Positions 4,658-6,181 of a stretch of DNA of 64,000 nt are shown here, one piece after another. The position numbers and the translations under genes are program-made. The stretch spans positions 3,534,001 through 3,598,000 of the forward strand of contig NZ_CP084469.1 in the NCBI RefSeq assembly GCF_020405205.1, in the 5' to 3' direction. The DNA comes from Natrinema salinisoli. GTDB lineage: Archaea > Halobacteriota > Halobacteria > Halobacteriales > Natrialbaceae. A model generated the notes under the pieces. The model saw only the letters and a program-made list of their open reading frames with translations. It did no database searches and was not told where the DNA came from. Numbering within the stretch: the stretch's first letter is position 1; every line of letters begins with the position of its first letter.

Positions 4658-5011
4658 TCAGTACGCTTCCTTGACGGCGTCGATCTGGCACTGAATGCAG
4701 TGATCGTCGGCGAAACAGGCGACGTTGTCGTACGGACAATCGTACTCCTCGACGTCGACGGACAGGCGACGTTTCGCGTGTTCCCACTCGGTCTCCCAGT
4801 CGTCGATATTCATGTCCGAAGACGTGAATACGACGTTTCCGTCCCGGTCGACGATCTTCGCGACCGTGACCGAGCGGTAGTTCTCCTTCACGACAGCGAT
4901 CGCTTCCTCGTACGATCCGCAGCGGATTTTCTCTCTCCCCGCCGTGTCGTCCAGGAGATGGACGACGATGGAGCCGTCGTACTCCTCGGTCGGCTCCAGC
5001 CCGTGAACCAT
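4658..5011 (-). CDS. Conserved haloarchaeal hypothetical protein with Cys-rich C-terminus
   Basis: A 117-residue acidic soluble protein without a recognised family. The first 75 residues look like a small alpha/beta fold with a central strand pair (SVTVAKIVD, NVVFTS). The last 25 contain four Cys residues in the pattern C-x6-C-x6-C-x2-C (YDCPYDNVACF, HCIQCQ), a likely metal site. It is convergent with the hydrolase gene. A role in metal binding is inference only. The uniform acidic composition and clean start make it a real gene. Confidence 0.75.
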   Translation of the reverse strand: MVHGLEPTEEYDGSIVVHLLDDTAGREKIRCGSYEEAIAVVKENYRSVTVAKIVDRDGNVVFTSSDMNIDDWETEWEHAKRRLSVDVEEYDCPYDNVACFADDHCIQCQIDAVKEAY

Positions 5012-5216
5012 GCCATCTACTGGCGGAACGAGACATAAAAAGCTGCGCTTCGGTGAGACGAACAGTTCGGGCGAATAGAGAACCGGCCCGGATGCGAGAA
5101 TCGACGGGAACGAACCGCGTTCACTTCGTTGGCGACGAGGTCGAGTTCACACAACAGGTGCATTGGGGCCGATCCACCGCAAGCCACAACCTGCCCCTCG
5201 CTAAAGGATACGTCGT

Positions 5217-5951
5217 ATGTCACCGAACTCCAATAGTAGCGTCACGCTCGTCCGTAACGCCACGCTCCTCGTGACCGTCGGCGAGACGACGTTTCTCGTC
5301 GATCCGCTGTTTGCGTCCCCCGGAGAGAACCCGTCGATACAGAATACACCGAACGATCGCCGGAATCCGCTCGTCCCGATGCCCGACGTGGATCTGTCCT
5401 ACGATGCAGTGATCGTCACCCACCGTCATACTGACCACTTCGACGACGCCGCGAAAGCGGAACTCGACGCAGCCGTCCCGTTGTTCTGTCAGCCCGCCGA
5501 GGCGGATGCGTTCGCCGACGAGGGGTTCACCGACGTGCGTCCCGTCGACGATTCGGTCTCGTTCGACGGCGTCACCATCTCCCGGACGCCCGGTCGTCAC
5601 GGGCACGGGGAGTTAGCCGAAAAGATGGGGCCAGTCTCGGGGTTCGTTCTCGAGGCCGACGAGACGCTGTACATCGCTGGCGACACGGTCTGGTACGATC
5701 AGGTCGAACGGACGCTCGAGCGGTTCGACCCCGACATGGTCGTCCTCAACGGCGGTGAAGCACAGTTCAATCAGGGCGAGCCGATCACGATGGGCGTCGA
5801 GGACGTCTCCACCGTCCGCGAAGCCACCGACGCAACGGTTGTCGTCGTTCACATGGAAGCCATCAACCACTGCCTGCTCACACGCGAGGAATTGCGCTCG
5901 GGGACGGAGAACGTTCTCGTCCCCGACGATGGAGAGACGATCACGCTGTAA
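5217..5951 (+). CDS. MBL-fold metallo-hydrolase
   Basis: A 244-residue metallo-beta-lactamase-fold protein of the COG2220 (UlaG-like) type. The metal motif HRHTDH (His69, His71, Asp73, His74) is complete. Further ligands are expected at RHGHGE, AGDT (Asp of the bridging position) and HMEAINH. The family includes lactonases and phosphodiesterases that act on small metabolites; the exact substrate is unknown. The short strand-rich N-terminus begins directly at ATLLVTVGETTFLVDP. It is a single gene, followed by the tRNA-His repeat region. Confidence 0.9.
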   Translation: MSPNSNSSVTLVRNATLLVTVGETTFLVDPLFASPGENPSIQNTPNDRRNPLVPMPDVDLSYDAVIVTHRHTDHFDDAAKAELDAAVPLFCQPAEADAFADEGFTDVRPVDDSVSFDGVTISRTPGRHGHGELAEKMGPVSGFVLEADETLYIAGDTVWYDQVERTLERFDPDMVVLNGGEAQFNQGEPITMGVEDVSTVREATDATVVVVHMEAINHCLLTREELRSGTENVLVPDDGETITL

Positions 5952-5998
5952 CTCGAGAACCGCCACTCACTCCGTTCGCGATGACGCTACAGAACGTT

Positions 5999-6017
5999 CG
6001 GGTGCGAGAATCGAACC
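5999..6017. repeat. Partial duplicate of the tRNA-His 3' end
   Basis: Nineteen bases here are identical to 6112-6130, the T arm and 3' acceptor side of the tRNA-His gene, in the same orientation and 113 bases apart. A 12-base inverted copy of the same T-arm segment lies at 6056-6067, opposing 6004-6015. Duplicated tRNA 3' ends are the usual product of integrases that use tRNA genes as attachment sites, so this may be an att-type scar. No integrase gene lies between or next to the copies. Confidence 0.6.
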
Positions 6018-6108
6018 ACGGTCGTTCCGCTCACTGCGTTCGCTCCACTCCCTGATTCGATTCTCGCCTTCCGGCTTTTCCGCTCCTCGTGTTACTCGTC
6101 GCGAAAAA

Positions 6109-6181
6109 GTCCGGGTGCGAGAATCGAACCCGCGTCTCAGCCTCCACAAGGCTGAAGGATAACCACTACCCCAACCCGGAC
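6109..6181 (-). tRNA. trnH: tRNA-His (GTG anticodon)
   Basis: The minus strand folds as a standard cloverleaf: G-1, seven acceptor pairs (TCCGGGT with ACCCGGA), D arm, an anticodon stem around loop CTTGTGG with anticodon GTG, and a T arm GCGGG/TTCGATT/CTCGC. The extra 5' G opposite discriminator C73 is diagnostic of tRNA-His. CCA is not encoded, so it must be added after transcription. A run of five T residues follows immediately (6104-6108) and probably ends the transcript. No intron is seen. Confidence 0.96.

Follow-up and report, generated by a model that had tools for sequence, protein, structure and literature searches.

Arrays of hairpins and tRNA-tail copies behind haloarchaeal tRNA genes resemble recombination cassettes more than they do the scar of a single lost virus

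Introduction

What does a second copy of the 3' end of a tRNA gene, set directly behind that gene and accompanied by an inverted copy of its T arm, tell about the history of the site? The question is raised by the tRNA-His (GTG) gene of Natrinema salinisoli, which lies in a stretch of 64,000 nucleotides that was analysed as a whole (the window; G000:C1:3534001-3598000, G000 being the organism's own genome). An initial annotation, made from the letters of this DNA, had read the arrangement as the footprint of integration at a tRNA gene, left either as the scar of an excised element or as a serial target site. It is close to certain that the site is one unit of a family that stands behind many haloarchaeal tRNAs, each unit consisting of an a hairpin, an inverted T-arm copy, a b hairpin and a copy of the tRNA tail. 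As an explanation of these units, recombination cassettes appear to fit better than the scar of a single lost virus. We assign a probability of about one half to the reading that each unit is a fold-back cassette which a trans-acting recombinase has inserted at the tRNA tail.

The unit behind tRNA-His

The tRNA gene and its unit comprise the following features.

6108..6181, minus strand: tRNA-His (GTG) gene, found with ARAGORN and Rfam
6068..6108, minus strand: a module, a T-rich start and a hairpin, reaching from the tRNA tail to the inverted arm (inverted pair 6056-6083 / 6101-6128)
6056..6067, minus strand: inverted copy of the T arm, 12 nucleotides, exact
6018..6055, minus strand: b hairpin, class CAGGGAG...CGACCGTG, with the tandem-GA/GNA-triloop motif at 6029-6043
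5996..6017, minus strand: direct copy of the tRNA-His tail, 1 mismatch in 22

The copied tail corresponds to residues 53-73 of tRNA-His and one further base, located at 6130-6109. With the gene being on the minus strand, the copy lies 3' of it. The direct repeats 5993-6017 and 6106-6130 cover 25 nucleotides at 92% identity, with 19 nucleotides exact and a start-to-start distance of 113. Two observations of the initial annotation are confirmed here, namely that the 3' end of tRNA-His is duplicated on the same strand alongside the gene, and that an inverted 12-base copy of the T arm is found amid the direct copies. It had further stated that neither an integrase nor cargo remains. In the 91 bases that separate the tail copies (6109 to 6017), we find no integrase or element genes, intact or decayed. 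The nearest gene encodes a hydrolase, to which we return below.

Recurrence at tRNA-His of relatives and at other tRNAs

For tRNA-His, 36 downstream stretches were compared (35 relatives and G000), each 20 kb long except for two shorter ones. Of these regions 33 were usable, while the tRNA pattern was not matched in G029, G034 and G036. Within 400 bases downstream, 27 of the 33 loci, own genome included, have one or more further tail copies, or 28 under a looser rule of at most 4 edits in 20. G001, G002, G012, G013, G018 and G023 are the six loci where it is absent. The commonest order is tail, a hairpin, inverted T arm, b hairpin, tail, and G010 carries three further tail copies at tRNA-His. 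The b hairpins vary among species and group into few classes that are common to different tRNAs. In G047 and G058, the tRNA-His tail differs by one base, and the units there show the identical change. G014 contains an additional, altered tRNA-His gene, which is followed by a complete unit of its own (L178, G014:C2:222800-222990).

The same plan is found at other tRNAs of the own genome. We searched the 400 nucleotides downstream of each tRNA for a copy of its own tail with at most 4 edits in 20. Before counting, we removed duplicate stretches and any tRNA in which no GTTC could be read. This left 44 locus entries, of which at least one, L079 (read as Leu), is a second reading of the adjoining tRNA-Asn. 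Own-tail copies occur downstream at 16 of the 44 entries, compared to 26 of 1345 tests with the tails of other tRNAs and to 1 of 44 entries for the 400 nucleotides upstream. Two of the 16 are not units, since L099 is a tandem tRNA-Asp and L110 a weak 4-edit match at tRNA-Arg(GCG). True units are thus present at 14 of 44 entries, His included, each with the tail of its own tRNA. The inverted arm taken alone gives a weaker signal (14 of 44 downstream, 123 of 1345 in tests with other tails, 1 of 44 upstream). Tail copies are also found in chosen tRNA loci of G027 (13 of 25), G015 (13 of 26) and G010 (15 of 25), fractions that are not unbiased rates because the loci were chosen to match array-bearing tRNAs of G000. 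Behind tRNA-Thr(TGT) of the own genome (L107), another hairpin, CCTTAGGTTC...GAACCTAAGG, is located 6 bases 3' of the tRNA, and no tail copy of the usual type is seen there.

Edges of the tail copies

The tail copies end sharply on both sides. Among 91 copies compared to their own tRNA, identity is 0.96 at residue 53 and 0.68 and 0.25 one and two bases earlier. It stays at 0.84 or above through residue 73 (0.84 at residue 73 itself) and is 0.52 at the next base. Because the copies were selected by their match within residues 53-73, only the sharpness of the edges counts as evidence. The match of the inverted arm starts at residue 54 and fades past residue 63, the arms being likewise selected by match. 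Loci of tRNA-Asp were excluded from this analysis as well as from those of unit differences and of the position of extra units.

Fold and orientation of the hairpins

At its apex, the b hairpin has a tandem-GA motif with a GNA triloop. We built a covariance model, R1, from one b class including the arms (7 sequences, 66 positions, 23 pairs) and ran it on 95 chosen loci of 200-odd, where 62 places match at E 0.01. In the alignment of these places, which was fitted to R1 itself, 93.2% of the cells are paired, compared to 74.8% after shuffling and at most 44.6% in slid controls, and changes on both sides occur in 20 of 23 pairs, compared to 13.4 in shuffles. The seed alignment alone gives 97.5% paired cells versus 86.9% after shuffling, and changes on both sides in 9 pairs versus 3.3.

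The b hairpins are also strand-biased. At 149 tRNA loci, a loose form of the motif is found downstream 88 times in sense and 7 times in antisense, and upstream 7 and 4 times, respectively; the strict form occurs downstream 44 times in sense and 2 times in antisense, and upstream 4 and 0 times. In the 64-kb window, the loose motif is found 4 times on the plus and 9 times on the minus strand, and the single occurrence of the strict motif lies inside the tRNA-His unit. The strict hairpin scan used 2-bp flanks; flanks of 3 bp matched nothing in the window, the His unit included. With DNA parameters, folding favours the sense strand in 71 of 84 b hairpins. Structure is better conserved than sequence in the inner hairpin, which is mostly found in one orientation. 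In Rfam 15, the window matches tRNA only at gathering scores, and a search with 10 loci at E 0.1 returned tRNAs and one sub-threshold match opposite a tRNA.

A structured host RNA is the main rival at this point. The units would then be a 3' trailer, a terminator or a processing signal, with the fold under selection and the units shuffled, both inside one tRNA locus and from one locus to another, by homologous recombination and gene conversion across the tail copies. Covariation and the single orientation relative to transcription speak for such an RNA, as does the T-rich start behind tRNAs and tail copies. Folded RNA together with homologous recombination explains the fold equally well, and arms that fit each host tRNA less well. 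The sharp edges at residues 53 and 73 at many tRNAs and the restriction to 14 of 44 loci are not explained by an RNA role alone. We consider this explanation rather unlikely, with further points in its favour given below.

Distribution

From the phylum, 392 genomes were sampled; R1 matches 75 of them at E 1e-4, every one belonging to the order of the window. Six genomes of this order are listed without a match, and 297 further genomes without a match were counted jointly. From 32 R1 loci examined (29 new ones and 3 from the own genome), 31 are located 35-262 bp downstream of a tRNA and on its strand, although R1 contains tRNA-like arms and therefore favours places near tRNAs. In the own genome, 14 matches at E 1 or better are distributed over 8 places directly behind tRNAs, 1 displaced array and 5 places elsewhere. 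Four of the latter have E values of 0.03 or worse, and the fifth, L205, reaches 1e-11. L205 (G000:C1:3028220) and L213 (G000:C1:3105213) are b-like hairpins with no tRNA arms and no tRNA within the 3-kb stretch; the core hairpin may also exist independently of tRNA loci.

When named genomes were scanned with a pattern, at least 120 stretches matched, 80 of which were examined; these are haloarchaeal by title, with Actinarchaeum, which we take to belong here, counted among them. Among the matches listed, 77 of 84 are found 46-688 bp downstream of a tRNA on the same strand, with 27 tRNA types represented, and the tail arm fits that tRNA in 75 of the 84. Five of the other seven lie at most 500 bases from a locus end.

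Gain and loss of units

Between related species, the arrays behind same-named tRNAs differ by whole units. Among the comparisons listed, tRNA-Thr(CGT) has one extra 102-bp unit in G000 relative to G027, which adjoins the tRNA. For tRNA-His, an extra unit adjoining the tRNA is present in G025 relative to G014, and in G007 relative to G020. The extra unit adjoins the tRNA in 13 of 16 informative species pairs, which are not independent events and in which gain is indistinguishable from loss. First tail copies differ from the tRNA by 0.84 edits on average (n=70) and second ones by 1.47 (n=19), a weak polarity (p=0.026 for first versus all later tail copies). The sharp edges at residues 53 and 73 and the whole-unit steps together point to site-specific recombination at the tRNA tail.

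Gain and loss of whole units would also fit a passive and functionless by-product, that is, quasi-palindromes or tandem copies arising by replication template switching or unequal crossing-over near highly transcribed tRNA genes. Replication template switching can yield alternating direct and inverted copies, and the alternation found here is consistent with it. Such an origin is very improbable, given that the b classes are few, common to different tRNAs and conserved in structure by compensatory changes, that the edges agree across tRNAs, and that the 75 matching genomes all fall into one order.

Integrated elements at the same tRNA tails

The initial annotation had proposed to search related genomes for elements integrated at tRNA-His. 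Such elements are found in G012 and G022. In G012, an integrase is located about 1 kb behind tRNA-His, a 42-nucleotide tRNA repeat follows about 71.5 kb on, and then the array continues. G022 carries an element remnant of about 3 kb at tRNA-His, and a unit with a perfect tail stands between the tRNA and the more decayed element end. This order suggests that units can also arrive later. At the far ends of both elements (L177 in G012, L061 in G022), the direct tail copy is preceded, at a distance of some tens of bases, by an inverted one, and inverted arms may play a role in integration more widely. The part of the annotation that saw a serial target site is supported to this extent, as elements of relatives do use the tRNA-His tail. 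The annotation had also named the outcome that would speak against it, the same repeat in all relatives without any element ever found there. We observe the reverse, with 6 of 33 loci lacking the repeat and elements present at tRNA-His.

A second large element is found in the own genome. It is about 25.6 kb long, with an integrase at 1606098 behind the tRNA-Leu(TAG) gene at 1605452 (G000:C1:1605452-1631227; loci L114, L208). At its far end, a tRNA repeat of about 59 nucleotides with 3 mismatches is followed by an array. Between the tRNA-Leu rebuilt by the element and the old 3' part at the far end, 3 bases differ. In G001, a matching array stands directly behind an intact tRNA-Leu. In the tRNA-Leu case, the array therefore predates the element, which displaced it. 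The ends of both large elements examined are unlike the units, with tRNA repeats of 42 and about 59 nucleotides and no b hairpin.

These findings bear on the view that an integrative element at tRNA-His was excised or decayed and left its scar in the window. A direct copy of the tRNA 3' end does lie alongside the gene, and elements integrate at the tRNA-His tail in relatives, as is also described for Haloquadratum GI3 in the part of PMC3119063 that we consulted. The same plan, however, recurs at 27 of 33 tRNA-His loci and, within the own genome, behind 13 other tRNAs, the ends of the elements examined have no b hairpins, the tRNA-Leu array of G000 is displaced by about 25.6 kb while that of G001 stands directly behind the intact tRNA, and the viral contigs scanned contain no such hairpins. 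The scar is largely refuted and improbable. As the principal explanation it was rejected, since many tRNAs have the plan and, at tRNA-Leu, it is older than a real element. Blastn of the tRNA-His site against plasmids (5 records) and phages (27 records) matched the tRNA itself or brief stretches of chance similarity.

A hydrolase gene among the tail copies

Beyond the unit, three further features follow in the window.

5217..5951, plus strand: gene for a metallo-beta-lactamase-fold hydrolase amid tail copies, possible cargo
5086..5107, minus strand: decayed third tail copy past the hydrolase gene, 5 mismatches in 22
4658..5011, minus strand: conserved neighbour gene with no Pfam match, located directly after the array in relatives without the hydrolase gene

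Of 300 shuffled patterns, none reaches the match of the decayed copy (5107-5086). Five genomes (G000, G027, G010, G020 and G028) have the hydrolase gene behind tRNA-His, and each of them shows a tail copy, with 1 to 7 mismatches in 22, between this gene and the next conserved one. In G010, this copy is part of a full series of inverted arm, hairpin and tail. With the hydrolase gene lying amid tail copies in five of five genomes, the earlier statement that no cargo remains becomes doubtful. Most units have no gene, and the case at tRNA-His in these five genomes is that of one gene. The neighbour gene could not be placed in 17 of 33 genomes, being either lost or ambiguous in its place. A single ancestral capture of the hydrolase gene with later losses is as likely as repeated gains.

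Proposed mechanism and its weighing

Structure that is kept despite sequence change, the one orientation and arms that rebuild the target once folded together point to recognition of a folded single strand. In the fold-back cassette reading, the inverted arm and the tail copy of a single-stranded unit would pair and thereby rebuild the tRNA tail in double-stranded form, and a trans-acting site-specific recombinase would join this folded copy to the tail of the real tRNA. The enzyme would most likely be of the tyrosine type, for example a Xer-type enzyme or the integrase of a helper element. The tRNA would stay intact and gain one unit, occasionally with a gene. As a more tentative extension, to which we give somewhat less than even odds, these loci may represent an order-wide haloarchaeal system in which single-stranded hairpins armed with tRNA tails are captured unit by unit next to the tRNA, sometimes with a gene. 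Such a system would be integron-like, with the tRNA in the role of attI and a putative recombinase.

Several observations weigh against fold-back cassettes, beside the dependence among species pairs and the weak polarity given above. No enzyme, no circle or excised form and no recombination event was seen in the sequences analysed. IntI above the TIGR02249 cut-off is found in 0 of 41 genomes; weak matches below it occur in 32 of the 41 and likewise in all 14 control genomes. Five exact hairpin scans of viral contigs gave 5, 0, 1, 0 and 0 stretches and no true match, and the 5 + 1 stretches, at which no tRNA was found, look like chance. The unit of the window, a member of the CAGGGAG class, is not matched by R1, and a unit of this class in G035 (L022) is matched only weakly, at E 0.0037. 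The link between the classes therefore rests on the common plan and on single-sequence folds, not on the model. The a modules show little strand preference (sense better in 54 of 87 with DNA parameters), and covariation is equally expected from a folded RNA. In G007, G008, G017 and G026, which have other genes behind tRNA-His, no tail copy stands out beyond them.

Simple growth at one end is contradicted in some arrays. The extra unit at tRNA-His of G010 sits within the array. Among the comparisons listed, the a modules at tRNA-Ser(TGA) are in opposite order in G000 (L108) and G027 (L129) with the b modules unmoved, and one b module is inverted at tRNA-Ser(CGA) of G015 (L148). The a-module swap and the extra unit within the array resemble recombination inside an array and thus favour the host RNA, as does L205, a b-like hairpin without tRNA arms that is located at a gene end elsewhere in the genome.

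The hairpins as viral attP sites were also considered and rejected, as the viral-contig scans gave chance-like stretches only.

In either case, a structured, covarying element without an Rfam match stands behind many haloarchaeal tRNA genes. If recombination of folded DNA is true, these tRNA genes would carry a platform for gene capture, which would help to explain tRNA hot spots. If the RNA explanation is true, tRNA transcripts would have a new layer at their 3' end. Under both readings, a haloarchaeal tail copy near a tRNA is alone no proof of a lost virus. In the titles and abstract beginnings of the open-access papers listed by literature searches the arrays are not described, and an earlier description elsewhere is possible. 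Motif strings searched in paper texts matched 8 papers, none of them on archaea as judged by title.

Comparison with known systems

In single-stranded phages of the CTX type, inverted core sites of attP pair into a double-stranded site that is used at dif. The inverted arms of the units would pair into a double-stranded site in a similar way. In contrast to CTX, there is no phage genome, and the target is a tRNA tail instead of dif.

Repetitive extragenic palindromic sequences and bacterial interspersed mosaic elements (REP/BIME) are short non-coding hairpins of alternating orientation with many copies per genome. Short, multicopy, non-coding hairpins are likewise described for the palindrome-associated elements of haloarchaea (PMC3119063, in the part consulted). 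The units share with both that they are short non-coding hairpin repeats of alternating orientation in many copies. They differ in being bound to tRNA 3' ends and in having arms that copy the host gene.

Archaeal elements that integrate at tRNA genes, with integrases of the SSV, pNOB8 and SNJ2 types, leave direct tail copies (PMC8371274 and PMC3119063, each in part). Direct tail copies are found in the units, too. However, the units are only about 100-180 bp long, mostly geneless and without an integrase, they contain hairpins and an inverted arm, and they stand behind many different tRNAs of one genome.

Archaeal integrons have been described in PMC9668308; in the portion of that article consulted, the words halobacter, haloarch and Halobacteriota are absent. 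Membership in this group was rejected because of the IntI result. Unlike integrons, the units use a tRNA tail in place of attI, carry few genes and have arms that copy the tRNA. Like integron cassette arrays and their attC sites, they form structured, strand-biased hairpin sites in an array that would grow mostly at one end, with a conserved fold and a variable sequence.
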